DNA of 64,000 nucleotides, from the NCBI RefSeq assembly GCF_963576615.1, contig NC_088714.1, positions 65,418,667 to 65,482,666 on the forward strand. The letters are read 5' to 3'. The DNA comes from Watersipora subatra (taxonomy: Eukaryota; Bryozoa; Gymnolaemata; Cheilostomatida; Watersiporidae). Of this stretch, positions 36,161-64,000 are shown one piece after another. The translations under genes and the position numbers were made by a program. Positions within the stretch are counted from its first letter, which is position 1, and the number at the start of each line of letters is the position of its first letter. Under the pieces are notes generated by a model that saw nothing but the letters and a program-made list of their open reading frames with translations, did not search any database and was not told the origin of the DNA.

Positions 36161-37010
36161 ATGGCTGACGTTTCTAATGTTAGAAACGATGATTTGTTAG
36201 AAAAAGGTAAGTAATCATATGATCTTTGCTTAACTAGATACGCCTTTGGTACTACGGCTAGACCAGAAAGCTTTTGCAGATAGTGTGATTCTGCATTTAG
36301 TGGTTAAGTTTTTTTTGTCAAAAGTTGCAAGGTTTGCGCTGTTTACCAAATTTGGCATTTGGCATAAGAGTAGTATAAACTGGCAGATTTTTTTGACAGA
36401 TGAAACATGGTTTAAGTTACTTTTATCGTATGTCCAGTTTCCTATTGCAGATGGCGTGTACGAGCTCTTTGAGAAATCTAGCTTGTCTCAGCGAAGGACA
36501 AGGAGAGAGTATTGTATAGCTCAGCTTCGGTTGGATCCAGATTTAAACTTGGAGGAGTTTCATGCCATTTACGCTGAACCCAATCACAGAGGCAAGTCTT
36601 CTGCTGAGAGGGTCTGTGAACTCTTTGCTAAACGTTACCAAGATGTTCAAACACCCGACATGGTTTTTCGAGTTTACACAAATTACGCACCTACAAAAAG
36701 AAGCGTAAAAATATGGAAGTCTTTCCAAAAGCGGTACAAGATGAAGATAGACATGCGGGCAGTCTGCCCCGATAGTCAAGGGGAAAATGAGCTGAAAGAA
36801 ATGTTACAGGAGAACGGAAACATTCGGTTGCGCGCTTTCAAGAAGTCTGATTGGTCCAAATTAGCCAAGATGATACAAAAAGCTCCCATTCCAGGAACAT
36901 TGCCAGATGTTGCTGCGCCATCGAACGAAAGGCTGGCAGCAGATGCTGCTGCCAAGAAAGTTTTTGCGAGGTTGCGACCAGCTCGTGTGAAAAGTAATAT
37001 TAAAAAGTGA
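36161..37010 (+). CDS. AID/APOBEC-like deaminase-fold protein, zinc site degenerate (gene A)
   Basis: Two exons, 36161-36206 and 36451-37010 (AAAG|GTAAGT, TTGCAG|AT, phase 1), 201 residues. Paralogue of 57930-58972 with the same 46-bp first exon and phase. The family call rests on layout: conserved YCIAQL (36-41), then Ser66-Ala-Glu68 where deaminases have His-x-Glu, 27 residues, then TNYAP with Pro96 where Pro-Cys-x2-4-Cys is expected, then a Trp/helix/strand pattern ending in a DWSKLAKMI segment. His is replaced by Ser66, the first Cys by Thr97 and the second by Ser100, so zinc binding and catalysis are not expected. No signal peptide or membrane segment. The C-terminal NERLAADA motif is shared with the paralogue. 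Function is unknown; deaminase ancestry is inference. Confidence 0.75.
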
Positions 37011-37893
37011 TTCAAGCAAAAACATTTGTTGCTATGGCTGCCCGAAAGGTGACAGGAAGTACATGTGATCGTTATAGACGTATTTACTCTCACAATATAT
37101 AGCGCACTGCACAATACCTTTGTGTCCTTGATCTTTGTGTCCTTGACATATTAACAGAAAGTGTGACAGTAATCCTTAAACGCTGCTGCTGCCTTTAGCT
37201 GTTTCTAATATAAATAGAGAAAGTACCACTAGGCTAGTAATCTATTTACTAAATGATTTCTACAGACATGAATGTTTTACTCAATATAACATTTATACTG
37301 TATAACCATACTTGTCTCTGAATACTGAGTGTAGACGCCAGCATCGTCGATGCAGTCACCAATCATTGCATCTCAGAGGCAATTCTTTTTAATCAATTTT
37401 TTTCTGCAAGTCGGCCATCTTAAATATGGAAACAAAATACTGTAACATCTATATGTGAGCTTCTCAGTGAGCTTCTCGGTGAGCCATTCAAAAAAGACAC
37501 AAATGACAAAATCCGTTGTTTGGTTAGGATATCAGTGACTCTTCTACTCGAGGTTATCAGTAATGTTTTCAAGTAGGCAGATAAAGCGAGTGAGTTATTG
37601 ATTATGGGTTATGCCATCAACACACCACTATTATTATTATGTCAAGCGTTTTAATACGGTCGACGTATTGTGCATCATGCTCCAAATACTTGAAGGGTTG
37701 TCCACCCCTCGTCTCACCAGTCTTCATTCGACTAGCACTATCATATTAGTAAGATCCGTGTAGTCAACCATGACATAGTCAGCATGATTATAGAACAGAA
37801 TAACTTCAGGTTAATTACATCCGTCAGTGCAGCCTAAGCTATGCAGATTGCACAATCGATCTTCGAGGGATTTCTGACACACCCCAACAGCAT
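37011..37893. other. intergenic, no feature seen
   Basis: 3' flank of gene A. No AATAAA was found close to the stop and no other coding frame was recognised. Confidence 0.5.
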
Positions 37894-38766
37894 TTGACTT
37901 GCAACAAAATTCACATTACAGTTATTTGATATCAAAAGATTCACCATGTCTTAATCTGCTGTGTTGAAGGTGCAAAATATGTGGAAATGTGATTACAAGT
38001 TCTTAAAAGCTAAAAAACGAACAGTTAATCGCAGCCACACGAGACCGCCGTAGTTTGGATTCTCTTTCCAAAACGGCTTAAATGTGATGCAGTTGTGGTA
38101 GATGGTTTCTGTTTACACTTTCATGCAACCTTATTCGTCGAAATATTTTCACAAATATACTTCACGCATTCAATAAAACCATGTCTATTGTTCTTACGCA
38201 TCTGTTTTATCGTCATTGTAATGCTGTCACTTTTAGCACTGATATCTTATAACTTGCCGTAAAAATTCATTTGATTTTTTCACCTTAGATCGAAGGAGTA
38301 CATATCATTGTCTGATAATCAAGACAAGCCTATTAGTTACCTGTGATAATCGAAAAATGCTGCAAAAATTATTTTTGAAGTATTGGGTCACATGATCAGA
38401 TTACGACTTGACGATTAGATCAAGCCGAAACAAAACTGTAAAGTAGCAAGCATCTATATTTGATACGGGGTCTTCGGTAAACCCGAAGTGTTTGTCATAA
38501 AATAGTGCTACGATAAGTTTTATATTGAACTTTTTATTGGCCTTTTAATTCACGTGAGAACATCATGTGACAAGACAATAACCAAACTGTAATGACTACA
38601 TCAGAAAAATAAGCAGATTCAATCTACGGCAGCTTTTCATTTTTGAGTTTTTAAGAGCTTGTAATCACATTTCCACGTATTTGGCACCTACAACACAACA
38701 TAGTAAGACTTGGTGAATCTTTTGATACCAAATAACTGTAACGTGAATTTTGTTGCAAGTCAACCC
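37894..38766. mobile_element. foldback MITE, copy 1 (~125-bp inverted ends)
   Basis: Begins TTGACTTGCAACAAAATTCA and ends with its reverse complement. Inverted ends extend through ATATGTGGAAATGTGATTAC. The whole element matches 42871-43776. No coding capacity. Confidence 0.88.
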
Positions 38767-39679
38767 TTAACATTAGTTCAGCTTACTTGGAGAAATTTAA
38801 AATAAATTTTTTGTAAAAGTTAAGTATTCCCGGTGCTGAATGTAAGGCTCTGTTTGTGGGCAAAGGAATCTTCTTAGTTTTCTCTATCAAATCCGGTGAC
38901 CCAACCTTCTGTTACGTCTCATGGCAATAAGTAAGCTCAAGTGCTTAACCTTAGGCCACACTAGCACAGTTTTTGACCCAGTAATGAATGAATTTATCTT
39001 GCGACTTTCCTAATCGCTGCAGGTGTTCATTCAAGCAGGGCTTAGGAAACACAAGAATTTCATCCAGCAACACCTGACATGCTACAACTGTCACATTTTT
39101 CTAGCATGACAGCGATTACTCGTTGAAAAGCGAATATACTGTTTTTAACATCAAAAGGCATAATTTCATATGAATAAATGTCATATGAAGTAGTCCTGTC
39201 TTCATATCATATAAAATTTTATATACACCTTCAAATTTCATGTAAAGTTTTATATGAAATTCTGACCTCATGCTCTAAGGGTTTGGAGAAAAGCTTCGTG
39301 TAAACAAGATTTTCAACCAACACTTGAAGAAAGATAATATATTCGAGTAATGTACACTCTGCATTTAACAATCACATGTAAAAGACTGAGTCATTATGAA
39401 AATGTTTTTTTCATATAAAAAACTATGATAGTTTGATTGATGTCGAAGCATAAACTTTGCCAAACACAACTTGGTACATGTATATGCAAAGCACACCATT
39501 AACCAAAATATATATTTCATGTTTTAGGCACTGAAGGCAAGACTGAAGATTGCAGACAAATGTGTTATTACGTTTGGTGGAGTGTATAGAGGATAAACCT
39601 AGAAAGCAGACATAGGAGAAGGTTGATAACTTTAGATATAGTTTAGAGAAATGTATGTCAGCAATGACTGTCATTATTT

Positions 39680-39850
39680 ATCTTTACTATAATAAGATCC
39701 ATGTCTGTCTGTCTGCAGCTACACCCTTAGCATTAGGATAAAACGGTTGCACCACACGGGAGTCAAATCAGATATCAAATTTAAAGTCAAGCGCGCCACC
39801 ACTGCGTGACTCGACCACCTTTCCACACCTAAGAATAACTATGCGCATAC
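39680..39850 (-). repeat. SINE-like repeat, second family
   Basis: On the minus strand it starts near GTGGCGCGCTTGAC and ends in GCAGACAGACAGACATGG followed by ATCTTATTATAGTA, a tail style common to invertebrate SINEs. The B box is degenerate. Confidence 0.4.
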
Positions 39851-40157
39851 TTACTATGTATGACTGTTTCTCACAGCCAGCGCACAAGACTGCCATCGTA
39901 CTAGTATGAATAAAAACAGTAAGTAAGCCTTGTGTAAATTAGTGACTTTCCTGGAAATGTTACAACAATATTGTTATAACAAGATAATGGTTGTCAAATA
40001 AATGTCTAGCTGGCAGCTATCGCTAAGTCTGACATGTTCAGTTCATCTATCTTTAAAAAAATGTTTAACGCAACCACTAGGTCAGGCATTGTTATAACTA
40101 ACTCATCTGAGAACAGAGTGTTCACCATTTTAGAAAAAAAATTCCGAATTTGAAAGA

Positions 40158-40580
40158 AAAATTTCCCACATGTTTTGACGTTTTAAAATAAACGTGCTTG
40201 AAAATATTTTTAAAACATGTGCGTTGAAAACAGAGCTGCGTAGGAATGATGTAAGGATGTCACCAATGAGTACGATGAAAATTCAACTTCCGATCGCAAA
40301 GATTTTTGCAATAATACGAATATTGATATTTACATGATACGTAGTACTTTTTTGTTGCTACGTTGTTTTCAAAAATACCCTCATCTCCTTAAACCGGAGG
40401 GTTGAATCGCTTCGAAAAATTAAACATGCGATGGTTGAAACACTTTACACGCTACAAAGATTAAAAATATGACAAAAATTCACAGTATGTAACACTAGTG
40501 AAAGTGCCAGTTGAGTCATGTTAGGATATAAGGCCTTTGTTGCAGCTTTAGTACTAAACTCTGGGGTCAAGACATTCTCT
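40158..40580. repeat. dispersed repeat, copy 1
   Basis: Long block shared with 63630-64000, including CGTTTTAAAATAAACGTG, AAAACAGAGCTGCG, GTCACCAATGAGTACGATGA and AAACCGGAGGGTTGAATCGC. Class unknown. Confidence 0.8.
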
Positions 40581-41008
40581 TTAGCTTGCAGGTCACATAC
40601 AAAGGTGCTTTTATGAGCTTAACCTTTCTATCTTGTCAAAGTAACTAAAGCGCCTTGAAAACCCTTGATTCAGGGTGTTGATATGGTCACAGTAGCGTTG
40701 TCCTCCCTGTCTTCTCACAAAAACTTGAAGCAAGGAAAGTGCAGCATATCCGCTCGAATGTCACTTGTGAATAATAATAGCCGCTGGCTTCACAGTCAAA
40801 TGAAAGTCAATTATTGATTTGTCCTCCCTTGCAGCTTCAAATTGAGTGTGTTGAGTGCAGTGTACCTGGATTTGATCCAGGGCTTGTTTTATGAAACAAG
40901 TACATGTAATGTACTTGGGCTTGGCCCCAGGGGTCATCTATAATAGAACAGATGAAGTCAGTCTAGCTCTGCCAACCAAAGTGAACAGATGCTCGCTCCT
41001 ATACTCAA

Positions 41009-41450
41009 TGTTTCCATGACGACATAATTTGCAAACTTGAGCCAATCCGCAAGCTAATCATGGAAACAGCATAAATTCACTAGCTAAGCGAGTTTTGTGA
41101 TTCGCAAAACTTTATCGAATCCATCATGCTTGCGAATAATGGAAACAGCACTTGCGAATGATGCGCATTAAAATACCGCGCCAGCTATTCAATTTTAAGC
41201 ATTTTCAATACTTCCGGTGTCCTTTCTCGATCGAGTTTCACGGATTTGCGTCACCGATACTTGCGGCGTTAATTACTAACCTAATAGCGTAGACTTCCTC
41301 ACCTTTTTTCAACATGGCGCCGGCATTAATCCGCATCATGCGAATGTCTATAGAAACATTAAATTCATTCGATAACAGAACTTGTACACAACTCCAAATC
41401 CGCATGATGCGCTTCATCTGTGTCATCAGTTGTCATGGAAACTGCAAACA
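41009..41450. repeat. putative MITE with GTTTCCATGAC ends
   Basis: Left ATGTTTCCATGACGAC and right GTCATGGAAACTGCAAACAT are inverted. ATGGAAACAGCA and CGCATCATGCG motifs recur inside. Target duplication not established. Confidence 0.4.
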
Positions 41451-42555
41451 TGCGAAGCAAAATACAGACATAAATTGCATCCCTTGCAGCTTCCTGTTGA
41501 GTGTTTTAAAATGTTTTCCTGATTTTCAACAGGAAAACCATATCATTCATGCATGCGTTCATCACTTTTTTGGCATGAAAACAAACATCTCAGCGCTTGA
41601 GCCACATGTTTCAAGCAACACAAGCGAGTCTTATAGTAACTGCCATTTTCTGCTGAGAGCATTTGTTTTACTGAGCTGACTCACGTTGTCATGGGTGAAA
41701 AGCTCATCATACTGGGCATCAGTATCTCTTAGAAACTGTTTTAGTTTCCTGCGATGACACGCCGCTTCTCTCTTGAGGTAGTTGATCATCTTCATTGCAT
41801 CTACCATCAACCATGGAAATCTTCACTGAGCTTGCCACAGAGCAGTGTTAGGTAAATTGTGCAATGGAGAGCAATGCATAGTCCTAGTCAGAGCCTGCCA
41901 TTGCTCTCCATGGCTCCAATCATGAGAGCATAATTCCTTGCATAATTCATTATGCAATGATTCCATGACAAAGCGTAATTTCATGAAATTTAGAGATGTT
42001 GATTATTTAAATAAAATTTTATGCCAAGGCTTGTGTTCATGATATTCTGTGATATACCATATTTTAATAAGATTTTAAGCCAGTGCATATTTTTATGAAA
42101 TTGCGAGATGTGGAATAATTTAATAAGAATTCATGACAAAGTGTAATTTCATGAAGTTCTGAGTTGTCTGACTCATTATCAGTCGCTCCAACAATCCCTA
42201 CTCCTTTTCAGTCAGAGCTGGTGCTCCATCAGTAGTAACAGAAATACAATTGGTAAGAGACAGTCCTGCTTCCCTTAGTTTCTCTAAGGTAACTGTATAT
42301 ATTATAGATCCTGTTGTATTTCCCCTTTAATGCCAACAAGAGTTAACAACCTCTCTACAATTCTTTTTACATTAAAGAATCTGCAAACAATGCTTTGCAA
42401 ATATTAGAAACAAAAACCACATTTTACAAACAGCTAGCACATGATGCAACTGTCTACTTATATTCAATGCATTTTATATGTTGTATTTTATAAGCACATC
42501 TATAAACATTCAGCTAAATTGTACTTTTATGTAACAAATCATGAAAACCGAAATA

Positions 42556-44164
42556 CAGGCAAACTCGGATAACTGAAACTTCACGGGACCGAACGAAAGT
42601 GTTCGAGTTATCAGAGCGTTCAAGTTATCAGAGCACTGTCACAAGTTCATTTATTTATTAGTAGTTGAATGTACATATACAACCTATATATAAATCAACT
42701 GCATAGATGGCTTGTTGAAAATTAAAAGGCTTCTACTGTAAAGTTTAAAAAAACTTTCATCAGAAAGTATGGAGACTTTTCTATAGCTTGATTGCTGGTG
42801 AAATGCTCAGAAAAAAAGACATCTTTTTCTTTTGAGCGTTTTAACTAAGATCAAGTTTGCCTATTTTTCTTTAAAGGTTGACTTGCAACAAAATTCACAT
42901 TACAGTTATTTGATATCAAAAGATTCACCATGTTTTACTCTGCTGTTTTGTAGGTGCAAAATATGTGGAAATGTGATTACAAGCTCTTAAAAGCTAAAAA
43001 AACGAACAGTTTATCGCATCCATCACAAAACCGCCGTAGATTGGAATATCTTTCCAAAACGGCTCAAATGGGACGTAGTTGTACAAGATGGCTTCTGTTT
43101 ACACTTTCACACAACCTAATTCGTCGAAATAATTTCACAAATATACTTCACGCATTCAATAAAACCATGTCTATTGTTCTTACGCATCTATTTTATCGTT
43201 ATTGTAATGCTGTCACTTTCAGCACTGATATCCTATAGCCTGCCGTAAAAATTCGTTTAATTTTTCAACCTTAGCTCTAAGGAGTACATATCATTGCCTG
43301 ATAAACATGACAAGCCTTTTGGTCACATGTGATAATCGAAAAATGCTGCAGAAATTATTCGCGAAGTATGGGTCACATGATCAGATTACGACTAGACGAT
43401 TAGACCAAGCCGAAACAAAACTGTAAAGTAGCGAGCATCTATATTTGATACGGGCTTTTTGGTAAAACCCGAAGTGTTTGTCATTAACTAGTGCTACGAG
43501 AAGTTTTATATCGAGCCTTTTATTGGCCTTTCAATTTACATGAGAACGTCTCGTGACAAAACAATAACCAAATGTAATGACTACGTCAGAAAATAAATTA
43601 ATTCCGATCTACGGCGGTTTCGTGATGGCTGCGATTAACTGTTCATTTTTAAGCTTTTAAGAGCTTGTAATCACATTTCCACATATTTTGCACCTACAAC
43701 ACAACAGAGTAAGACATGGTAAATCTTTCGATGCCAAATAACTGTAATGTGAATTTTGTTGCAAGCCAACCTTTAAGTTTATTCGAAGGTTAGCTCATTT
43801 TTCCTTGCTTTCGGAGGGAGGAGGAGGGCCATCGCTAAGGAGGGCCATCGCTAAACGGATGTTTGGTAAAATTTGATTTTTCCCAAACCTTTAGAAAAGT
43901 CGTTAACAAAAATATTTTGCCGATGATGGTAATAACGACGTCTAGGAACTACTAAAAGTTGAGGTTTATCTTTATGTCTTGGAATAAAGTGATATTCTAA
44001 AGCGATAACAACCGTCACAGTAGCTGTTGAGCAAAAAACTGTTCGAGTTAACCAAACTGCGTTATCTGAATCAATTTATCATTGCGTGTGAACAAACCAA
44101 ACACATCCGTTTGAGTTAACCATGTGTTCGAGCTATCCGAGGGCGAATTATTCATGTTTGACTG
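42556..44164. mobile_element. Tigger/pogo-like non-autonomous transposon
   Basis: Left end CAGGCAAACTCGGATAAC, right end reversed CAGTCAAACATGAATAATTC, with TA duplications at 42554-42555 and 44165-44166. FGAGTTA-like motifs (TTCGAGTTATC, TTCGAGTTAAC) repeat near both ends. No transposase. It interrupts the hAT relic and contains the foldback MITE copy 2. Confidence 0.75.
42871..43776. mobile_element. foldback MITE, copy 2, TTAA-flanked
   Basis: TTAAAGGTTGACTTGCAAC ... GTTGCAAGCCAACCTTTAA. The TTAA at both edges suggests piggyBac-type target choice. Inverted ends of about 125 bp; central part shared with copy 1 (TGATACGGG, GAAGTGTTTGTCAT, TTTATTGGCCTTT). Confidence 0.88.
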
Positions 44165-45212
44165 TATTTTTACCTGATATGTCTAGTTGTACCACATCTC
44201 AAATATCTGTTGACTCATCTAGGACAGCTAACAAATTCACTTACCATTGTGCATTATGCACTTCTACATGTAGTTGCCTTACTAGGTCACTAGCTAATTC
44301 ATCCATGCGCCATGTAGGCCTACGTGTTTACAGAGATAGCAGGACTGAAAGCGTTTTGTCAACAATGTCTTTTTCTCAGGAAAGGTTGTCTCCGGACAAA
44401 AAGACATTGTTTTGCGTGTTGACTTCCAACACGCAAGGCAACTTGAACAGTATGATTGTATGGTGCCACAGCTTCTGCAAGCGACCTTGACACACACTAG
44501 AAGCTTCTGTAACTCTCTTCTCCAGTGAAGAGAAGTTTTGTAACATTGCAGTCTATGGCATGAATACCATTCTCAAGATTTTGACTTTCTCTTTTCTGGC
44601 TTGATAACTTGATGGAAACATTTGATCAAACTTCTCTCTGTGCTTAGCATGGTAGTGTCTCTGAATATTAGTTTTTTTGATAACAGCAACTGTATCACGG
44701 CATTGAGGTTTAGCATAATGCAGTATAAAAAGAAACTCCATCGCCCAGTCATCATTAAATATTAGAGTAGCAAGCTGTAACTTCTGCTTTTCTCTACTTC
44801 AGCCATTATCAATATGTCCATTTACAGATTAATAGAAGTATATGAAACAAAACTGAGTTTTCAACATACTTATAGGTAAGCGACAGTAAGTTACTAGCCA
44901 ATGAAACACAGATGAAATTACATGTATAAGTAAGTACATTACCAAATGAGCCATGCAGAGAGAGGTGATAGAGAATTGAAGTACTTAGAATAGAAATCCT
45001 ATTTATACAGTCTATATATACATGTATATTTAACTGTAGATCTGGCCAGAACATTATGTTGTGTGATGCAGTATTTTGGATGCTTACAATAAATATACAG
45101 CACATAGGTTATGCAGAACAGATCCAGTGAGTTTCACTAACTATTTCACCCACGAAAATTAGCACAAGCAAGTGGGCCACAGACCATAGTTTGGCGATCC
45201 TTGTTCTAGGTA

Positions 45213-45930
45213 ATAGTCTTCGCTCTAATTTTCTCCCTCAGAATCCCTCCATAGTTTTCTTTACAACTGAGATAGTTCGTTGAGTACTTGGTTACTGCAT
45301 GCAAGTAGTGATGTAGTGGTAACCTTTTTTTTAACCATAACTGTAAAGTTGAAATAAGTGGATATAGGCGACTAAGAGTCGCAACACAACTCTTGGTTGG
45401 AACAGCTGGGGGCCTGGGGGTGCTGTAAGCCCCCCAGTGAGGTCCGGGGTGAAGCCCCGCCACCAAAGCCTACAGGACTTTAAAATTATGTATATGATAT
45501 GAGAAATGAGCACATCTGTAGTAATAAATAAGTTGAGAAAATAATAAAATTTTGGGAATATAGTGTTGCCAGAAGCCCTGAGAAAGACATGCAACTATTG
45601 AATGTATGGTTCAAAGTATTTATTGTAAAACACCATCAGACGCAAAAAGATGGGTTCTTTGGAAGAATAATATACTAGGGAACTTTACTAGTGGCTTACT
45701 AGTGAAAAAGAGCATAAAAACAAGATATTTTAAAGCACCTCTGGTATAACTCTACTATGAATATCTATACATATGAGGATATTAACTCCAGCCAAAAAGT
45801 TTGTAACAAATCTTTCAAAGCCACAGAACAAACTAAAGGTTCTTTGTACAAATAAAGAAATGAGCAAAAAATGCGTTCCTGATTAAATTACACAAACAAG
45901 CTAGAAAAAGTTCCATAACTTCTCATACCT
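45213..45930. other. intergenic with a GC-rich dispersed-repeat fragment
   Basis: GGGGGTGCTGTAAGCCCCCC and GTCCGGGGTGAAGCCCCG (45416-45460) form GC-rich inverted motifs typical of repeat ends. The rest is unremarkable. Confidence 0.45.
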
Positions 45931-48900
45931 CTTATTATATGAGTATCTAGTGACTCGTGTCTGCTCTTCATCAGCAGTCTTATTATATGAGTATCTAGTG
46001 ACTCGTGTCTGCTCTTCATCAGCAGTCTTATTATATGAGTATCTAGTGACTCGTGTCTGCTGTTCATCAGTAGTCTTATTATATGAGTAACTAGTGACTC
46101 GTGTCTGTTCTTCATCAGCAGTCTTATTATATGAGTATCTAGCGACTCGTGTCTGCTCTTCATCAGTCGTCTTATTATATGAGTATCTAGCGACTCGTGT
46201 CTGATCTTCATCAGTAGTCTTATTATATGAGTATCTAAAGACTCGTGTCTGCTCTTCATCAGCAGTCTTATTATATGAGTATCTAGTGACTCGTGTCTGC
46301 TCTTCATCAGCAGTCTTATTATATGAGTATCTAGCGACTCGTGTCTGCTCTTTATCAGCAGTCTTATTATATGAGTAACTAGTGACTCGTGTCTGCTCTT
46401 CATCAGTAGTCTTATTATATGAGTATCTAGTGACTCATGTCTGTTCTTCATCAGCAGTCTTATTATATGAGTATCTAGTGACTCATGTCTGCTCTTCATC
46501 AGCAGTCTTATTATATGAGTATCTAGTGACTCGTGTCTGTTCTTCATCAGCAGTCTTATTATATGAGTATCTAGTGACTCGTGTCTGTTCTTCATCAGCA
46601 GTCTTATTATATGAGTATCTAGTGACTCATGTCTGCTCTTCATCAGCAGTCTTATTATATGAGTATCTAGTGACTCGTGTCTGCTCTTCATCAGCAGTCT
46701 TATTATATGAGTATCTAGCGACTCGTGTCTGCTCTTCATCAGCAGTCTTATTATATGAGTATCTAGTGACTCGTGTCTGCTTTTCATCAGCAGTCTTATT
46801 ATATGAGTATCTAGTGACTCGTGTCTGCTCTTCATCAGCAGTCTTATTATATGAGTACCTAGTGACTCGTGTCTGCTCTTCATCAGCAGTCTTATTATAT
46901 GAGTATCTAGTGACTCGTGTCTGTTCTTCATCAGCAGTCTTATTATATGAGTATCTAGTGACTAGTGTCTGCTCTTCATCAGCAGTCTTATTATATGAGT
47001 ATCTAGTGACTCGTGTCTGTTCTTCATCAGCAGTCTTATTATATGAGTATCTAGTGACTCGTGTCTGTTCTTCATCAGCAGTCTTATTATATGAGTATCT
47101 AGTGACTCGTGTCTGCTCTTCATCAGCAGTCTTATTATATGAGTATCTAGTGACTCGTGTCTGCTCTTCATCAGCAGTCTTATTATATGAGTATCTAGCG
47201 ACTCGTGTCTGCTCTTCATCAGTCGTCTTATTATATGAGTATCTAGTGACTCGTGTCTGCTCTTCATCAGTAGTCTTATTATATGAGTATCTAAAGACTC
47301 GTGTCTGCTCTTCATCAGCAGTCTTATTATATGAGTATCTAGTGACTCGTGTCTGCTCTTCATCAGCAGTCTTATTATATGAGTATCTAGCGACTCGTGT
47401 CTGCTCTTCATCAGCAGTCTTATTATATGAGTATCTAGTGACTCGTGTCTGTTCTTCATCAGCAGTCTTATTATATGAGTATCTAGTGACTCGTGTCTGC
47501 TCTTCATCAGCAGTCTTATTATATGAGTATCTAGTGACTCGTGTCTGTTCTTCATCAGCAGTCTTATTATATGAGTATCTAGTGACTCGTGTCTGCTCTT
47601 CATCAGCAGTCTTATTATATGAGTATCTAGTGACTCGTGTCTGCTCTTCATCAGCAGTCTTATTATATGAGTAACTAGTGACTCATGTCTGTTTTTCATC
47701 AGCAGTCTTATTATATGAGTATCTAGTGACTCGTGTCTGCTCTTCATCAGCAGTCTTATTATATGAGTAACTAGTGACTCGTGTCTGTTCTTCATCAGCA
47801 GTCTTATTATATGAGTAACTAGTGACTCGTGTCTGTTCTTCATCAGCAGTCTTATTATATGAGTATCTAGTGACTCGTGTCTGTTCATCATCAGCAGTCT
47901 TATTATATGAGTATCTAGTGACTCATGTCTGCTCTTCATCAGCAGTCTTATTATATGAGTAACTAGTGACTCGTGTCTGCTCTTCATCAGCAGTCTTATT
48001 ATATGAGTATCTAGTGACTCGTGTCTGCTCTTCATCAGCAGTCTTATTATATGAGTATCTAGTGACTCGTGTCTGCTCTTCATCAGTAGTCTTATTATAT
48101 GAGTAACTAGTGACTCGTGTCTGTTCTTCATCAGCAGTCTTATTATATGAGTATCTAGCGACTCGTGTCTGCTCTTCATCAGCAGTCTTATTATATGAGT
48201 ATCTAGTGACTCGTGTCTGCTCTTCATCAGCAGTCTTATTATATGAGTATCTAGCGACTCGTGTCTGTTCTTCATCAGCAGTCTTATTATATGAGTATCT
48301 AGTGACTCGTGTCTGTTCTTCATCAGCAGTCTTATTATATGAGTATCTAGTGACTCGTGTCTGCTCTTCATCAGCAGTCTTATTATATGAGTATCTAGTG
48401 ACTCGTGTCTGCTCTTCATCAGCAGTCTTATTATATGAGTATCTAGCGACTCGTGTCTGCTCTTCATCAGTCGTCTTATTATATGAGTATCTAGTGACTC
48501 GTGTCTGCTCTTCATCAGTAGTCTTATTATATGAGTATCTAAAGACTCGTGTCTGCTCTTCATCAGCAGTCTTATTATATGAGTATCTAGTGACTCGTGT
48601 CTGCTCTTCATCAGCAGTCTTATTATATGAGTATCTAGCGACTCGTGTCTGCTCTTCATCAGCAGTCTTATTATATGAGTATCTAGTGACTCGTGTCTGT
48701 TCTTCATCAGCAGTCTTATTATATGAGTATCTAGTGACTCGTGTCTGCTCTTCATCAGCAGTCTTATTATATGAGTATCTAGTGACTCGTGTCTGTTCTT
48801 CATCAGCAGTCTTATTATATGAGTATCTAGTGACTCGTGTCTGCTCTTCATCAGCAGTCTTATTATATGAGTATCTAGTGACTCGTGTCTGCTCTTCATC

Positions 48901-51881
48901 AGCAGTCTTATTATATGAGTAACTAGTGACTCATGTCTGTTTTTCATCAGCAGTCTTATTATATGAGTATCTAGTGACTCGTGTCTGCTCTTCATCAGCA
49001 GTCTTATTATATGAGTAACTAGTGACTCGTGTCTGTTCTTCATCAGCAGTCTTATTATATGAGTAACTAGTGACTCGTGTCTGTTCTTCATCAGCAGTCT
49101 TATTATATGAGTATCTAGTGACTCGTGTCTGTTCATCATCAGCAGTCTTATTATATGAGTATCTAGTGACTCATGTCTGCTCTTCATCAGCAGTCTTATT
49201 ATATGAGTAACTAGTGACTCGTGTCTGCTCTTCATCAGCAGTCTTATTATATGAGTATCTAGTGACTCGTGTCTGCTCTTCATCAGCAGTCTTATTATAT
49301 GAGTATCTAGTGACTCGTGTCTGCTCTTCATCAGTAGTCTTATTATATGAGTAACTAGTGACTCGTGTCTGTTCTTCATCAGCAGTCTTATTATATGAGT
49401 ATCTAGCGACTCGTGTCTGCTCTTCATCAGCAGTCTTATTATATGAGTATCTAGTGACTCGTGTCTGCTCTTCATCAGCAGTCTTATTATATGAGTATCT
49501 AGCGACTCGTGTCTGCTCTTCATCAGCAGTCTTATTATATGAGTATCTAGTGACTCGTGTCTGATCTTCATCAGCAGTCTTATTATATGAGTATCTAGTG
49601 ACTCGTGTCTGCTCTTCATCAGCAGTCTTATTATATGAGTATCTAGTGACTCGTGTCTGATCTTCATCAGCAGTCTTATTATATGAGTATCTAGTGACTA
49701 GTGTCTGCTCTTCATCAGCAGTCTTATTATATGAGTATCTGGTGACTCGTGTCTGATCTTCATCAGCAGTCTTATTATATGAGTATCTAGTGACTCGTGT
49801 CTGCTCTTCATCAGCAGTCTTATTATATGAGTATCTAGTGACTCGTGTCTGCTGTTCATCAGTAGTCTTATTATATGAGTAACTAGTGACTCGTGTCTGT
49901 TCTTCATCAGCAGTCTTATTATATGAGTATCTAGCGACTCGTGTCTGCTCTTCATCAGTCGTCTTATTATATGAGTATCTAGCGACTCGTGTCTGCTCTT
50001 CATCAGTAGTCTTATTATATGAGTATCTAAAGACTCGTGTCTGCTCTTCATCAGCAGTCTTATTATATGAGTATCTAGTGACTCGTGTCTGCTCTTCATC
50101 AGCAGTCTTATTATATGAGTATCTAGCGACTCGTGTCTGCTCTTTATCAGCAGTCTTATTATATGAGTAACTAGTGACTCGTGTCTGCTCTTCATCAGTA
50201 GTCTTATTATATGAGTATCTAGTGACTCATGTCTGTTCTTCATCAGCAGTCTTATTATATGAGTATCTAGTGACTCGTGTCTGCTCTTCATCAGCAGTCT
50301 TATTATATGAGTAACTAGTGACTCGTGTCTGTTCTTCATCAGCAGTCTTATTATATGAGTATCTAGTGACTCGTGTCTGCTCTTCATCAGCAGTCTTATT
50401 ATATGAGTATCTAGTGACTCGTGTCTGTTCTTCATCAGCAGTCTTATTATATGAGTATCTAGTGACTCATGTCTGCTCTTCATCAGCAGTCTTATTATAT
50501 GAGTAACTAGTGACTCGTGTCTGCTCTTCATCAGCAGTCTTATTATATGAGTATCTAGTGACTCGTGTCTGCTCTTCATCAGCAGTCTTATTATATGAGT
50601 ATCTAGTGACTCGTGTCTGCTCTTCATCAGTAGTCTTATTATATGAGTAACTAGTGACTCGTGTCTGTTCTTCATCAGCAGTCTTATTATATGAGTATCT
50701 AGCGACTCGTGTCTGCTCTTCATCAGCAGTCTTATTATATGAGTATCTAGTGACTCGTGTCTGCTCTTCATCAGCAGTCTTATTATATGAGTATCTAGCG
50801 ACTCGTGTCTGCTCTTCATCAGCAGTCTTATTATATGAGTATCTAGTGACTCGTGTCTGATCTTCATCAGCAGTCTTATTATATGAGTATCTAGTGACTC
50901 GTGTCTGCTCTTCATCAGCAGTCTTATTATATGAGTATCTAGTGACACGTGTCTGATCTTCATCAGCAGTCTTATTATATGAGTATCTAGTGACTAGTGT
51001 CTGCTCTTCATCAGCAGTCTTATTATATGAGTATCTAGTGACTCGTGTCTGATCTTCATCAGCAGTCTTATTATATGAGTATCTAGTGACTCGTGTCTGC
51101 TCTTCATCAGCAGTCTTATTATATGAGTATCTAGTGACTCGTGTCTGCTGTTCATCAGTAGTCTTATTATATGAGTAACTAGTGACTCGTGTCTGTTCTT
51201 CATCAGCAGTCTTATTATATGAGTATCTAGCGACTCGTGTCTGCTCTTCATCAGTCGTCTTATTATATGAGTATCTAGCGACTCGTGTCTGCTCTTCATC
51301 AGTAGTCTTATTATATGAGTATCTAAAGACTCGTGTCTGCTCTTCATCAGCAGTCTTATTATATGAGTATCTAGTGACTCGTGTCTGCTCTTCATCAGCA
51401 GTCTTATTATATGAGTATCTAGCGACTCGTGTCTGCTCTTTATCAGCAGTCTTATTATATGAGTAACTAGTGACTCGTGTCTGCTCTTCATCAGTAGTCT
51501 TATTATATGAGTATCTAGTGACTCATGTCTGTTCTTCATCAGCAGTCTTATTATATGAGTATCTAGTGACTCGTGTCTGCTCTTCATCAGCAGTCTTATT
51601 ATATGAGTAACTAGTGACTCGTGTCTGTTCTTCATCAGCAGTCTTATTATATGAGTATCTAGTGACTCATGTCTGCTCTTCATCAGCAGTCTTATTATAT
51701 GAGTATCTAGTGACTCGTGTCTGTTCTTCATCAGTAGTCTTATTATATGAGTAACTAGTGACTCATGTTTGCTCTTCATCAGCAGTCTTATTATATGAGT
51801 ATCTAGTGACTCATGTCTGCTCTTCATCAGCAGTCTTATTATATGAGTATCTAGTGACTCGTGTCTGCTCTTCATCAGCAG
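45931..51881. repeat. 48-bp satellite array, ~124 units, ~6 kb
   Basis: Unit GTGACTCGTGTCTGCTCTTC + ATCAGCAGTCTTATTATATG + AGTATCTA. Variants (TCATGT, CTGTTC, CTGATC, AGTAACTA, CTAAAG, TCGTCT) mark positions. The rare CTAAAG unit occurs at about 46235, 47291, 48539, 50027 and 51323, spaced by 22, 26, 31 and 27 units, which reveals kilobase-scale duplication. The right edge lies inside the 3' coding end of the hAT transposase relic. Period 48 keeps long frames open (901 and 430 codons); they are not genes. Confidence 0.97.
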
Positions 51882-53514
51882 AACGATGAGATTTCAACCA
51901 CACCTTCACACATTTGTCTGGATTAAACAATGATACAGGAGGGCCCACAAGAGAAATTAAGAGAAGGTTGTTAGTGTGTGGGACAGTAGGGCGGTTTCTG
52001 ATGTCACTACAGATTAAGTTTATGGTGCTGAAACCCCTCTCACAATCTGCGCTTGATCTAGGTAGTGTGTTTACAATGCTTTCAAGTTTCAATATTTGCT
52101 CTAGTACTAATGTATCTCAGAGGCGTCAACATAATCTCGGAAATGAGAGAGATAATGGGCAAAATCTAGGCTAAAGTGTGCACAAAGGGCCTTCAGTACA
52201 CCCTTTCCATGTAGCCATGGACTCTCAACACCACTTAGCCAGAACTGAACAATTTTCTTGGACGCCAGAGTCTTTGCCATGCCATGATATGTAGCAGCTT
52301 GCTTGCCAGACTTGGCAGACTCCAACTCCGTGAAATGATTATATAATGCTTTGTAACTCTTCCAAACATCAGTGAGATTTCGAAAACTTGATGCCACCCA
52401 TCTCACATCTAATACTCGGCCAATCTTGAGTACCTCTGACTCGACCACAGCAGCACACTCCCTTAGTTTTCTTTGAGCTTTTGGACTTTGACTATATATC
52501 GAATACAGTTTGTCCAGGAAAATTTTTACATGATTCACTTGCGAAACAGATTTAACAGCATCACCAATAGCAAGCTCGACTCGATGACACATACAATGCC
52601 ATAGAAAAATGCTGGGGAACAAACTTTTCAATCTCGACAAAACACCAGAAGAAGAGCCAAGCATCACAGATGCACCATCAGATCAAGCACCAACCAAGTT
52701 TTTTTTCAAGAAAGTCTATGGTAAACCCATTTTTGTTGAGTAATGCCAAGCAAGCATCTGTTATGGGCCCAGCACACAAACTCTCAAGCTCTACAAGCTC
52801 TAAAGGGAAAGCAAAGAATTCTTAACTAGCAAGAGTTGTCTCTGGCAATGCTGTTCTCAAGTATAAAATAAGAGATGACTTTTTTTCTATTGTGGTAGAC
52901 TCGTCCATCATAATACTAATCTTACAAGAGTTTTTCAGTATTTCTGAACAAAGAGAAGACTTCATTTCCTTAGATATACAATCAACTATGTTAGTTGCAG
53001 AGAATCTTGAACGCAGGCCTTTGCCAAGGTTTGTGCCATTGCTTTCTTGTAACTCACACAATTCTTGGTATGAAGTGTAAGGTCTATTATGCGTCTATGT
53101 GTCTATTATGTGTCTATGAAGTGGTCTATTATGCTTTGCAAGGGAATGTGCAGCTTTCGTTAGCTTGGCAGTAGTTGAGGCATACTTTGTTTTGCTAGCA
53201 AGCACTTGATTAGGAAGTATATCTTTCTTAGACTGGTCTTTTATGGTTTGTACATGTTTATGGCAAGCAGACTTTGCATGATTGAAAATATTTACCCTCA
53301 ATGAAGCAAGCTGTTGGCCATATGTAACTCCACTGTGGGTGACACCATCTTTGGCCCTTTCTCCTCTGATGTACACTCCTTTTGCAGAGTCAAGTGACTC
53401 TGAGCCAGCATAAATGCAAACTTTACACATTAGTTTTCCTTCAGCGTTACTAGTGAGCCAGGGATAGTCTTGTTTTCTTTTTATTAACTGTGACTCGTCC
53501 AGATAGAAGGACAC
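51811..53514 (-). pseudogene. decayed hAT transposase, KIAA1586-like
   Basis: Read right to left. A TTF-type zinc segment (YPWLTSNAEGKLMCKVC ... NIFNHAKSACHKH) starts after an acceptor TTTTCAG at about 53515. RNase-H-like core pieces follow: ISIMMDESTTIEKKSSLILY, SDGASVMLG, WHCMCHRVELAIGDAV and RVLDVRWVASS. The last is the hAT C-terminal dimerisation motif, LPRSSADCERGFSTINLI. The frame is broken by stops near 53093, 52822 and 52680, a shift in an A-run near 52703 and another near 52100. A small direct repeat (CATAATAGACACATAGA) sits at 53070-53115. The tail KSHRSADEEQTR runs straight into the 48-bp satellite. An acidic stretch at 54050-54118 could be an upstream exon but does not join cleanly. 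Confidence 0.85.
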
Positions 53515-53529
53515 TGAAAAGTAAAGAGC

Positions 53530-55070
53530 TCAATCAATTGATAAGAATAATGATTATAACATGTTATAGTAAGAAAAAGCCTGGGATTGGTGAGGCACAA
53601 ATGATGAGCCATTTGTAGGCAAATTAAAATTTGAAATGATATTATACTTGGCCAGTTGGTTGGCTAAATGAAAATTTAGCAGTAGGGGTTGCTCCATTAA
53701 GTGGCATACAATTTAGTCCACTGCTTTGTTTACAATGCTGCCTGGAACATTGAGGATGATCAATCATAGTCAGATAACCGCATTACAGAGATTGCACACC
53801 AAATTTCACAAAAGTTGGTCAATCGACCTTTTTCTGTCTGACTGCTGTAGCTGTAGGGGCATACAAAGTGATGGTGGTAAAATCTGTGTCTGTCAGCATA
53901 GTGATTTCAGTACCAATCTGCGTAAGGTAATCATATTGATAGTTAAACACTTAATAAATAGAATATAAAAAAAAAAGATCGAATAGGTGTATTTGGCTAT
54001 GTTTATACAAACAGAATCACATTGAATTTTAAAATATTATTCACCTAAAAAGTTTCAGTATCAGGGCCATCAGATAGTTCTCCTGGAGCATCTTCATGGT
54101 TAGTCTTCCTGTAAAAGTTTCAACAGTGCTTTCAACACAAAGTCAAACAATTTATTGCTAGACGCTAATGCAATGTTTCTATGATATCTTGACCCCGTGT
54201 CTCATCCTTAAACTACCCAGTACGTGGCAGTGGTTCAAAAGCCAGCTGGCTCAATGCACTAATACCCGGACACAAGTAACCAAGGCTTGTATAGATCTAA
54301 TTTGATTCAATGGACTAGGTGAGGTCTATATTGTGCATAACATTTTATTTGAATTGTATTGTGACTGACTTGGTTTTGATTTTGTAAAGGCGAAGTCCAT
54401 AAGAGATTTTCTCTTGTCATCCATCGTCTATGAGCAGCAGGACTTGGGAGGCGTTCTCATGACAGAGAAAAGTTGCAATTGCTATTTGAAAAGTTGCTGG
54501 CATATCTCATATCAGAACTGCCTGAACTGAACTGTTGAAATGCTGCTTCTGGTTTGCTGTCATTGGTGTAATTATCCAATTAGTCTCATTGCCTTGACCT
54601 TTGTTCTTGATAAGATATGCTGCCATTGGTTGCTGTCATTTGTTTAGTGAGACAGCCAAATAGGATCAATGCCTTTGACATTTGTCCTTTGTTCCTTGGT
54701 ACATATGCTGACTGCCATTGGTTTGCTGTAATCTGATCTTAGCCTTTGTTGTAGACAACCAATTAGGATCACAATCTTGTCACGTTACAAGAACATTACA
54801 TCACTGTATTGTACTGCATGCTGCTTTTATATTGAATGGCCATTGAGTGTCAACTATAATGATATTAGTGTACTTGAATCAACGAAATAGCGCTATAATA
54901 TACCTGGAGAATTGGCAAGGTCTAAAATCTTTTAACCTCAACTATAGTTATAGGCCTACTTAAAAAGCACAAATTTTCTAACCATAGCTTAGTTAGGGAG
55001 AGTTAGGGTAGCACTACATCACTGCATGCAAGCGTTTAGGGAATTCCCCTTTCCACCGACCTTCATTTAC
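53530..55070. other. intergenic, no gene seen
   Basis: AT-rich. A degenerate ~90-100-bp direct repeat with TTTGCTGTCATTGG and CCAATTAGGATCA lies at about 54545-54775. No conserved frame. Confidence 0.5.
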
Positions 55071-55084
55071 GTGTATGGATTTTC

Positions 55085-57609
55085 TATTGAATCCTCAAAG
55101 TGACTATTATTTTGGTCAATCAACATTTTACAACCAGTTCTACTTGGGCGCTGTCTTTGTATCACTACATCTACTTTTGAATCCTCAAAGTGACTATTAT
55201 TTTGGTCAATCAACATTTTACAACCAGTTCTACTTGGGCGCTGTCTTTGTATCACTACATCTACTTTTGAATCCTCAAAGTGACTATTATTTTGGTCAAT
55301 CAACATTTTACAACCAGTTCTACTTGGGCGCTGTCTTTGTATCACTACATCTACTTTTGAATCCTCAAAGTGACTATTATTTTGGTCAATCAACATTTTA
55401 CAACCAGTTCTACTTGGGCGCTGTCTTTGTATCACTACATCTACTTTTGAATCCTCAAAGTGACTATTATTTTGGTCAATCAACATTTTACAACCAGTTC
55501 TACTTGGGCGCTGTCTTTGTATCACTACATCTACTTTTGAATCCTCAAAGTGACTATTATTTTGGTCAATCAACATTTTACAACCAGTTCTACTTGGGCG
55601 CTGTCTTTGTATCACTACATCTACTTTTGAATCCTCAAAGTGACTATTATTTTGGTCAATCAACATTTTACAACCAGTTCTACTTGGGCGCTGTCTTTGT
55701 ATCACTACATCTACTTTTGAATCCTCAAAGTGACTATTATTTTGGTCAATCAACATTTTACAACCAGTTCTACTTGGGCGCTGTCTTTGTATCACTACAT
55801 CTACTTTTGAATCCTCAAAGTGACTATTATTTTGGTCAATCAACATTTTACAACCAGTTCTACTTGGGCGCTGTCTTTGTATCACTACATCTACTTTTGA
55901 ATCCTCAAAGTGACTATTATTTTGGTCAATCAACATTTTACAACCAGTTCTACTTGGGCGCTGTCTTTGTATCACTACATCTACTTTTGAATCCTCAAAG
56001 TGACTATTATTTTGGTCAATCAACATTTTACAACCAGTTCTACTTGGGCGCTGTCTTTGTATCACTACATCTACTTTTGAATCCTCAAAGTGACTATTAT
56101 TTTGGTCAATCAACATTTTACAACCAGTTCTACTTGGGCGCTGTCTTTGTATCACTACATCTACTTTTGAATCCTCAAAGTGACTATTATTTTGGTCAAT
56201 CAACATTTTACAACCAGTTCTACTTGGGCGCTGTCTTTGTATCACTACATCTACTTTTGAATCCTCAAAGTGACTATTATTTTGGTCAATCAACATTTTA
56301 CAACCAGTTCTACTTGGGCGCTGTCTTTGTATCACTACATCTACTTTTGAATCCTCAAAGTGACTATTATTTTGGTCAATCAACATTTTACAACCAGTTC
56401 TACTTGGGCGCTGTCTTTGTATCACTACATCTACTTTTGAATCCTCAAAGTGACTATTATTTTGGTCAATCAACATTTTACAACCAGTTCTACTTGGGCG
56501 CTGTCTTTGTATCACTACATCTACTTTTGAATCCTCAAAGTGACTATTATTTTGGTCAATCAACATTTTACAACCAGTTCTACTTGGGCGCTGTCTTTGT
56601 ATCGCTACATCTACTTTTGAATCCTCAAAGTGACTATTATTTTGGTCAATCAACATTTTACAACCAGTTCTACTTGGGCGCTGTCTTTGTATCACTACAT
56701 CTACTTTTGAATCCTCAAAGTGACTATTATTTTGGTCAATCAACATTTTACAACCAGTTCTACTTGGGCGCTGTCTTTGTATCACTACATCTACTTTTGA
56801 ATCCTCAAAGTGACTATTATTTTGGTCAATCAACATTTTACAACCAGTTCTACTTGGGCGCTGTCTTTGTATCACTACATCTACTTTTGAATCCTCAAAG
56901 TGACTATTATTTTGGTCAATCAACATTTTACAACCAGTTCTACTTGGGCGCTGTCTTTGTATCACTACATCTACTTTTGAATCCTCAAAGTGACTATTAT
57001 TTTGGTCAATCAACATTTTACAACCAGTTCTACTTGGGCGCTGTCTCTGTATCACTACATCTACTTTTGAATCCTCAAAGTGACTATTATTTTGGTCAAT
57101 CAACATTTTACAACCAGTTCTACTTGGGCGCTGTCTTTGTATCACTACATCTACTTTTGAATCCTCAAAGTGACTATTATTTTGGTCAATCAACATTTTA
57201 CAACCAGTTCTACTTGGGCGCTGTCTTTGTATCGCTACATCTACTTTTGAATCCTCAAAGTGACTATTATTTTGGTCAATCAACATTTTACAACCAGTTC
57301 TACTTGGGCGCTGTCTTTGTATCGCTACATCTACTTTTGAATCCTCAAAGTGACTATTATTTTGGTCAATCAACATTTTACAACCAGTTCTACTTGGGCG
57401 CTGTCTTTGTATCGCTACATCTACTTTTGAATCCTCAAAGTGACTATTATTTTGGTCAATCAACATTTTACAACCAGTTCTACTTGGGCGCTGTCTTTGT
57501 ATCACTACATCTACTTTTGAATCCTCAAAGTGACTATTATTTTGGTCAATCAACATTTTACAACCAGTTCTACTTGGGCGCTGTCTTTGTATCACTACAT
57601 CTACTTTTG
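55085..57609. repeat. 90-bp satellite, 28 near-identical units
   Basis: Unit starts TTGAATCCTCAAAGTGACTA and includes TTGGTCAATCAACATTTTAC and TTGGGCGCTGTCTTTGTATC. Across 28 units only two kinds of change were seen: TCACTA to TCGCTA in four, and CTTTGT to CTCTGT in one. Both strands have a frame crossing the whole array (852 codons plus, starting at a real ATG at 55075; 848 minus with no ATG). On the plus strand the common change is silent; on the minus strand it is Val to Ala. Confidence 0.97.
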
Positions 57610-57929
57610 ACAAAAAGTGTGTGTTTCATCTAGTGCAGTTGAATGGGCAAAACAAGTAGCAGAAGTTATCTTCCTCCGCTAGTCTGCATTATTTTCTCTC
57701 AGCTAGCTGACTCCCATCTCTGTGGTGGTTTAAGTTATGATATTTGATTGTGCGGAAACTTTGTATGACTACTGACTAACTATTCAATTATCTGGAAAAG
57801 GGCATTTTCTAGAACATTCTATCAAGCGCTCTCACTTCAAACAGCTCGCAAGCCGCTCATAATACTCTAGTATCGCTTACTGTGACATCTGTTGACCTCA
57901 CAACCAACTTTTTGGGTAAGAAAGTGAAG

Positions 57930-58972
57930 ATGTCAGACGTTTATGATTGCAGAGATAATGATGATTTGACGAATGGTAAGTTATTAGAAATGTTCGCTGT
58001 GAAGTAAGTGCATAGGTGCTTACACAAGTGCCTTGTTACCCGATGGATAAGATGAACACCATTGGTCTACATTAGAATATAACTAAATTTATTTACATGT
58101 TACATATTTAAATTTATTCATGTCTAGTGTCTCGGCAAGTCATGTGCAAAGCATATCCAATTAAACTATGCAGCAGTCACAGTAAACCATGCTATATGTC
58201 TAACAAACAACACAAAGTGCCCTACAGTCAAATTATTAAAATAAGAGCAAAGCTGCATAATAAGAAAACTAAATATACATGTCCATACACTATAGGACTG
58301 TTTAGGTAATCCTAGAATCTGTAACGCACTGAATGAGGAGATGACACCTTATTGGTCAATTTAAAGCTTTATCTTGTACGTACTTCTCTAGTAGAATTGT
58401 ACAAAAAAAGATTAAACCTTTCTACATAGAACGATTGCCTATCATAGGTTAGCTCTATTGCCATTTTGCTTTTAGATGAACACTTCGACAATTTTAAAAT
58501 TGCTGGCTTGCCAGGTGAAACGACACAGAGATCGTACTGCGTAGCTCAGCTTCAGTCAGAGTCGGGAGAGCCTGAACAGATCTTCACCAGACCTAATGCG
58601 TCAGGAGTATTCACTTCAGAAAGGATTTGTGATGATTTTGCTAAATACTACAAAGATAATAAACAGTCAGGCAAGACACTGATAGTGTATACCAATTATT
58701 CTCCAACATGGAGGTGCCCAGAGGTTTGGATGGATCTGCAAGAAAAGTACGACATAGAAATAGAGATGAGAGCGGCTAGCCCATATGCCAGAGGAGAATC
58801 TGAAGTGAAAGAAATGTTAAGAAGCAATAAACACATTCGGCTGAATGCTTTCAGACCTAATGATTGGCAAGTTGTGGCTAATATGATAAAGGAACCACAT
58901 ATTCCACCATCAGCAGAAAGGTTGGCAGCGGATGCTAAGGCTCAAGCAGTTTTTAATAGTTGGCGCAATTAA
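57930..58972 (+). CDS. AID/APOBEC-like deaminase-fold protein, zinc site degenerate (gene B)
   Basis: Two exons, 57930-57975 and 58476-58972 (ATG|GTAAGT, TTTTAG|AT, phase 1), 180 residues; the exon plan equals that of 36161-37010. The ATG follows GTGAAG. Landmarks: YCVAQL (36-41), Thr62-Ser-Glu64 at the His-x-Glu position, exactly 27 residues to Pro92, then Thr93-Trp-Arg-Cys96 at the Pro-Cys-x2-Cys position, followed by helix/strand pattern and a NDWQVVANMI segment. Glu64 and the second zinc Cys (Cys96) are kept; His and first Cys are lost, so it is predicted inactive but is less changed than gene A. The C-terminal AERLAADA motif is shared. No signal peptide. Intact frame and conserved exon boundaries argue for a real gene. 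Deaminase ancestry is inference from spacing and motifs. Confidence 0.75.
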
Positions 58973-63629: not shown

Positions 63630-64000
63630 TGAGTCATGTTTTTACGTTTTAAAATAAACGTGTTTTAAAACTTTTAAAACATTTGCGTTGAAAACAGAGC
63701 TGCGGAAGGATGCTGTAAGGATGTCACCAATGAGTACGATGAAAATTCAACCTCCGATCACAAATATTTGTGCAATTATACGAATAGTGATGCTTACATC
63801 TTATGCAGTACTTCGTTGTTAATAGGAAGTTTTCAAAAATACCTCCCTTGAACCGGAGGGTTGAATCGCTTCAAAGAATTGAACATGCTACATTTGAAAC
63901 ACTTTACACGCTATGAAGATTTAAAATATGACAAAAATTCATTGCGTGTAACACTAGTGAAAGTGCTAGCTGAGTCATGTTAGGATACAATGCCTTTATT
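63630..64000. repeat. dispersed repeat, copy 2 (runs off the edge)
   Basis: Second copy of 40158-40580, same orientation, continuing past the end of the window. Confidence 0.8.

Follow-up and report, generated by a model that had tools for sequence, protein, structure and literature searches.

The closest described systems to the one reported here are the metazoan AID/APOBEC-like deaminases, represented in Pfam by NAD1, SNAD4, APOBEC4 and others and in sea urchin by SpAIDL (PMC5956068). Five of the sea urchin AID-like genes are frame-broken, and some are inactive in assay (PMC5956068). SNAD1 is treated in PMC11004436, and PMC13428168 is a further related source. Members without known catalysis include the N-terminal domain of APOBEC3G (A3G) and the inactive domains of other double-domain A3 proteins, which play a part in RNA binding (PMC7764128), as well as APOBEC2 and APOBEC4, for which deaminase activity has reportedly not been seen (PMC8201067). 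Here we describe two genes, A and B, in a 64,000-nucleotide stretch of the Watersipora subatra genome (the window, C7:65418667-65482666 of a 783.7-Mb assembly in 239 contigs). Their products are related to AID/APOBEC proteins by descent and lack the His and the first Cys that bind zinc as well as the catalytic Glu, and they are probably non-catalytic pseudo-enzymes that act in the cell through binding of nucleic acid or a partner.

The domain order of the A and B models is like that described for the metazoan AID/APOBEC-like deaminases, and the genome also encodes zinc-bearing paralogues that score above several of the corresponding Pfam cut-offs; unlike those deaminases, A and B are without the His, the catalytic Glu and the first Cys. 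APOBEC2 and APOBEC4 retain the zinc motif, whereas A and B have lost it. The N-terminal domain of A3G is non-catalytic, but its sequence retains both HxE and PCxxC and it makes up one half of a two-domain protein, while A and B are single-domain proteins without the motif. ADAT3 is likewise a pseudo-enzyme of the deaminase superfamily that stands beside an active relative; it differs in that its zinc site is kept and in that it belongs to another family of the superfamily (PMC7713142).

Genes A (window positions 36161-37010) and B (57930-58972) both lie on the plus strand and have two exons, encoding proteins of 201 and 180 amino acids, respectively. Exon 1 of gene A (36161..36206, 46 bp) begins with ATG, encodes MADVSNVRNDDLLEK plus the first base of a split codon in an open frame and ends at a GTAAGT donor; a phase-1 GT-AG intron (36207..36450) separates it from the main exon (36451..37010 including the stop), which holds the entire AID/APOBEC-like domain and a basic C-terminal tail. 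Gene B has a 46-bp exon 1 (57930..57975) encoding MSDVYDCRDNDDLTN plus the first base of a split codon, again with a GTAAGT donor, a phase-1 GT-AG intron (57976..58475) and a main exon with the AID/APOBEC-like domain (58476..58972 including the stop). The shared 46-bp first exon, phase-1 intron and single main exon claimed by the first-pass annotation are thus borne out by the exon and intron coordinates, the donors and the AG acceptors. The two proteins are 43% identical over 180 aligned codons, and their main open reading frames match each other by BLASTP with an E-value (E) of 7e-45. At the nucleotide level, the three BLASTN matches at E <0.01 listed between the gene regions fall within the main exons, and no match of introns or flanks at E <0.01 was found among the matches listed. 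Both the start of the protein and a C-terminal [N/A]-E-R-L-A-A-D-A helix are conserved between A and B and the main exons are open, consistent with the intact frames and co-conserved ends noted earlier. The N-termini are acidic and non-hydrophobic as judged by eye; no signal peptide of the kind that marks the secreted (SNAD) deaminases is apparent by eye in either protein, and intracellular proteins would therefore be likely.

The zinc-less group that includes A and B comprises seven loci, all on C7, and encodes six distinct proteins. Queried with gene A, the genome yielded 11 matches, each of them on C7 (14/14 candidates scored), and a search with the zinc-less locus L005 likewise gave 11 on C7, namely the seven zinc-less loci and four zinc-bearing ones (14/14 scored). 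A second copy of B (L003, 65.488 Mb) encodes an identical protein; it differs from B at 9 of 1635 compared bases, and none of the nine differences is in the exons. With 543 of the 1635 bases coding, this has a chance probability of ∼0.03 by a hand-worked binomial, which lends mild support to constraint. The remaining loci are L004 (65.495 Mb), in which the frame is broken near b1, L005 (49.65 Mb) and L007 (20.426 Mb), in both of which the main exon is open and preceded by a candidate first exon, and the short L006 (20.489 Mb); L008 is a second piece of the L007 frame. Frames are therefore open in five of the seven loci (A, both copies of B, L005 and L007).

Of the 12 loci scanned for a first exon, nine have a candidate: A, the two copies of B, L004, L005, L007 and the zinc-bearing L009, L010 and L011. 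None was found in L018, in L019 or in the DNA examined around L006. The candidates measure 46 to 121 bp, and the end of many of them is N-D-D-L- or D-D-S-E-like. Since the scan was limited to ATG-to-GTRAG stretches at phase 1, the phase of these exons is partly by construction; acceptors read by eye agree with phase 1 in A, B, L005, L007, L011, L018 and L019. A C-terminal helix of the R-x-x-A-D-A type is common to A, B, L004, L005 and L007, and is not seen in the zinc-bearing L009-L011. A minisatellite at 55087-57610, in which a 90-bp unit is repeated 28 times with 99% matches, ends ∼0.3 kb upstream of gene B. The same unit also precedes the second B copy (L003 1-430); the duplication therefore carried part of the minisatellite with it.

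The loss of catalytic residues is seen when the zinc-less proteins are aligned with their zinc-bearing paralogues, using MAFFT under five settings, MAFFT and hmmalign with five paralogues, and MAFFT with nine paralogues (15 proteins). In gene A, the S-S-A-E motif (36597..36608) places Ser at the zinc His position and Ala at that of the catalytic Glu, with a Glu one residue later, while in P-T-K-R-S (36690..36704) Thr and Ser occupy the positions of the two zinc Cys. In gene B, the corresponding motifs, also on the plus strand, are F-T-S-E (58610..58621), with Phe for the His, Ser for the catalytic Glu and a Glu one residue later, and P-T-W-R-C (58703..58717), with Thr for the first Cys and the second Cys kept. 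The register is direct in the comparison of L018 and B, in which N-A-Y-G-E-H-A-E-K-R-L aligns without gaps over N-A-S-G-V-F-T-S-E-R-I; similarly, the H-A-E-x-R-L of zinc-bearing proteins lies over F-T-S-E-R-I in B, S-S-A-E-R-V in A, Y-T-A-E-R-L in L005 and L007, S-S-A-E-R-L in L006 and F-T-S-K-R-I in L004. In all alignments, the column of the catalytic Glu is Ser or Ala in the zinc-less proteins, and the visible Glu stands one residue later. Matches to the Pfam Toxin-deaminase profile agree with this register, as the L009 match opens with its His at profile position 89 and the matches of B and L004 begin with Thr at position 90 (residues counted by hand).

Because the retained Glu is offset by one from the catalytic Glu, the group has lost the His, the catalytic Glu and the first Cys, and this holds for all six distinct proteins. 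The idea that the deaminase Glu is retained is not supported by these alignments, and the deaminase spacing of the first-pass annotation (x-x-E, 27 residues before the Pro) proves to be a register slip. Its reading of the ligands stands, in that other residues occupy the positions of the zinc His and the first Cys, with the second Cys retained in B and neither Cys present in A. Neither motif is present, with H-x-E columns that read F-T-S, S-S-A or Y-T-A, and PTKRS (A) or PTWRC (B) in place of P-C-x-x-C. Three features recur, namely the Glu adjoining the catalytic position (5/6 distinct proteins; Lys in L004), the second Cys (5/6; Ser in gene A) and a Ser or Thr at the first-Cys position (6/6). 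These could be taken to mean that the proteins are still enzymes, with a different ligand set, a metal site completed by a partner, or the Glu, Ser/Thr and Cys doing other chemistry, but we consider this quite improbable, given that the His, the catalytic Glu and the first Cys are missing in every protein, that Phe, Tyr or Ser takes the place of the His, and that gene A is also without the second Cys.

Homology to the zinc-bearing deaminases of the same genome is supported by profile comparisons. A profile built from L009-L011 scored the six zinc-less proteins at 26.1-38.9 bits, compared to a maximum of 8.3 bits in 12,000 shuffles (2000 of each protein; the shuffle control was run with this three-paralogue profile). 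With AID and A3G added, the scores were 23.5-31.4 bits against a shuffle maximum of 10.7, and a five-paralogue profile found all six at 27.9-52.4 bits. A profile of three vertebrate domains alone gave no separation (2.2-9.1 bits versus a shuffle maximum of 9.5). In trees of 9, 11 and 15 proteins, zinc-less and zinc-bearing proteins were split at 100/100, with long-branch warnings from the tree program for L006 and a possible long-branch join in the 9-protein tree and for L019 in the 11- and 15-protein trees. When three vertebrate stretches were added, the zinc-less group stayed intact at 100/100, and the zinc-bearing group ceased to form one side of a branch (2 changes, with forks at 78/81 and 84/91). 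The simplest reading of these trees, which are without a firm root, would be a single loss of the catalytic residues before the zinc-less group split. A and B are AID/APOBEC-like by descent and not deaminases by motif.

Structure prediction gave the AID/APOBEC-type deaminase fold for which the first-pass annotation had proposed a test. All 50 of the 50 PDB matches listed for the AlphaFold2 models of A and B are AID/APOBEC structures, and both models have the order a1-b1-b2-a2-b3-a3-b4-a4-b5-a5-a6, with a helix between b4 and b5. Taken by itself, the window offers weak sequence evidence. Gene B matches the Pfam families NAD1 (8.8e-4), APOBEC4 (1.9e-3), SNAD4 (3.6e-3), Toxin-deaminase (4e-3) and APOBEC2 (0.044), all below the curated cut-offs (the best, NAD1, at 19.9 bits versus a cut-off of 27). 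Several Pfam AID/APOBEC models score alike for B and the zinc-bearing paralogues, so that no single clade among NAD1, SNAD4 and APOBEC4 is favoured. Gene A has no deaminase match in Pfam; a match to DUF3456 (16.7 bits versus a cut-off of 21.1) was rejected. In local alignments with the two A3G domains, B was matched by 7 and 4 of 1000 shuffles and A by 60 and 797, while in alignment to human AID, 185 (A) and 154 (B) of 1000 shuffles scored as high, and the proteins were thus no better than shuffles. Searches of PDB sequences with B by phmmer and with a two-sequence profile gave chance matches only, hhalign of two shallow profiles gave a probability of 5.3% with an alignment judged to be in the wrong register, nothing relevant to A or B was found in PHROGs or NCBIfam, and none of 195 pattern matches in an IMG/VR scan encodes a relative. 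A weak third match in the window (63678-63848, E 0.084 among 1919 segments) was read and rejected as chance. The resemblance to deaminases might itself be chance, as the human AID alignments, the failed hhalign comparison, the vertebrate profile and the sub-cut-off (B) or absent (A) Pfam matches would allow; the scores of the paralogue profile against the shuffles, the structure searches and the shared gene structure make this very improbable.

The zinc-bearing paralogues form an array on C7. L010 as a genome query gave at least 20 matches, all on C7 (20/20 candidates scored), of which 14 lie on the minus strand at 54.476-54.639 Mb and were grouped by hand into ∼12 loci; the remaining six correspond to zinc-less loci (E 2.9e-5 to 0.065), and L006 is absent among the matches listed. 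Similarly, all 11 matches above cut-off in a genome search with Pfam SNAD4 are inside this array, with one sub-cut-off match on C3 (20.5 bits, E 0.21); in control genomes, the SNAD4 model had matches in 8 of 14, above cut-off in none. The array thus supplies the paralogues with HxE and PCxxC for which a genome search had been proposed: in the nine of the ∼12 loci read in alignment, HAE and P-C are present in nine and PCxxC in eight. In the ninth locus, L035 (C7:54614350-54615050), the two zinc Cys are separated by ∼18 additional residues; a tenth, at 54.5357 Mb, is fragmented, and those at 54.598 and 54.639 Mb are outside the motif count. The domains of L009, L010, L011, L018 and L019 all exceed the cut-offs of NAD1, SNAD4, APOBEC_N and APOBEC3. 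Main exons are open in L011, L018 and L019; L009 has a TGA after the domain and the start of its exon 2 seems out of frame, and in L010 the reading frame seems to be broken between the acceptor and the domain (both judged by eye). Several array loci have stops or are fragmented, L018 and L033 are a near-identical pair, and L010, L011 and L032 carry Asp/Glu-rich inserts directly before HAE.

The zinc-less genes might instead be decaying toward pseudogenes after catalysis was lost, with open frames that are young or lucky. We compared nonsynonymous (dN) and synonymous (dS) substitution over the 180 codons of A and B and obtained dN of 0.47 and dS of 1.60 by NG86, 0.45 and 1.08 by LWL85, and 0.50 and 1.42 by maximum likelihood, that is, dN/dS of 0.27-0.42 at dS >1. 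Main-exon NG86 ratios were 0.27 for A-B and 0.63 for B-L004, and among zinc-bearing loci 0.36 (L009-L010), 0.46 (L009-L011) and 0.87 (L010-L011); many other pairwise comparisons were saturated. In a neutral simulation, the probability of no stop was 0.0002 for A, 0.0014 for B, 0.051 for L005, 0.046 for L007 and 0.021 for L006, given substitutions without indels, starting from present sequences, at assumed divergences of about half of dS. The values for A, B, L005 and L007, the A-B ratio, and the fact that A, both B copies, L005 and L007 have open frames along with a candidate first exon and donor argue against decay, which we regard as unlikely for the group.

We favour non-catalytic pseudo-enzymes as the probable explanation, and several observations weigh against it. 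L004, with its broken frame and a Lys in place of the kept Glu, and L006, short and with no first exon found, look decayed, and the NG86 ratios of 0.71 (L005-L006), 0.85 (L005-L007) and 0.86 (L006-L007) also fit relaxed constraint. None of the seven zinc-less loci is among the genome matches listed for the SNAD4 profile. Query-normalised Foldseek TM-scores of the models are middling among the matches listed (0.42-0.62 for B, 0.37-0.52 for A), and many listed matches have a root-mean-square deviation >10. The predicted isoelectric point is 9.7 for A and 5.0 for B, so that for B an ability to bind nucleic acid is not evident. Moreover, yeast ADAT3 keeps its zinc and a double ligand mutant is insoluble (PMC7713142), and a zinc-less deaminase fold must therefore be stabilised otherwise.

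With the zinc-binding His, the catalytic Glu and the first Cys missing, pseudo-enzymes of this kind would bind no catalytic zinc and would not deaminate; that the products act intracellularly by binding nucleic acid or partner proteins is less certain. One possibility is a role as restriction factors that work independently of deamination; another is that they are non-catalytic partners of the array products or decoys for them, comparable to the pairing of ADAT3 with ADAT2 or to RNA binding by the inactive N-terminal domain of A3G. A tentative extension is that the whole clade has abandoned zinc and catalysis and has been kept as non-catalytic regulators or decoys of a mutagenic deaminase array on C7, where it would act as a built-in brake on an invertebrate mutator system or as its targeting arm. 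A special case of the favoured explanation, by analogy with ADAT2/ADAT3 and in our view rather doubtful, is that the zinc-less proteins would be non-catalytic subunits that pair with the array products and are needed for their activity or aim. The two groups share a genome, a chromosome and a type of first exon, and the R-x-x-A-D-A-type helix sets A, B, L004, L005 and L007 apart from L009-L011; however, the array lies at a distance of ∼11 Mb from A and B, and between 5 and 34 Mb separate it from the remaining zinc-less loci, and ADAT3, as noted, keeps its zinc.

Minisatellites occur at 13 places in the window, including one at 45930-51881, in which a 48-bp unit is repeated 124 times (95% matches) and which keeps long open frames on both strands. 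Upstream of gene A are an open frame for a BIR (inhibitor of apoptosis) domain (10149-10454, minus strand, E 1.5e-18), a squalene/phytoene synthase domain exon (28104-28787, plus strand, E 1.5e-33), which we take to be NDUFAF6-like, and a DUF1759 match (31274-31642, plus strand, E 3.5e-7), presumably gag-like from a BEL/Pao retroelement. Between A and B, separate open frames on the minus strand (51811-53529), of which the two pieces scanned gave only Pfam matches below cut-off, look like a hAT/ZBED-type transposase.

A search of literature listings, which did not cover the main family survey (Krishnan et al. 2018), showed no earlier notice of a zinc-less AID/APOBEC group among the entries listed. 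The inactive deaminase domains in the sources compared, ADAT3 and the N-terminal domain of A3G, retain the zinc site or the motif. A group that has lost both the metal ligands and the proton shuttle but still has open genes could reveal a use of the AID/APOBEC fold without catalysis, and the motif-bearing paralogues in the same genome allow a direct comparison with it.

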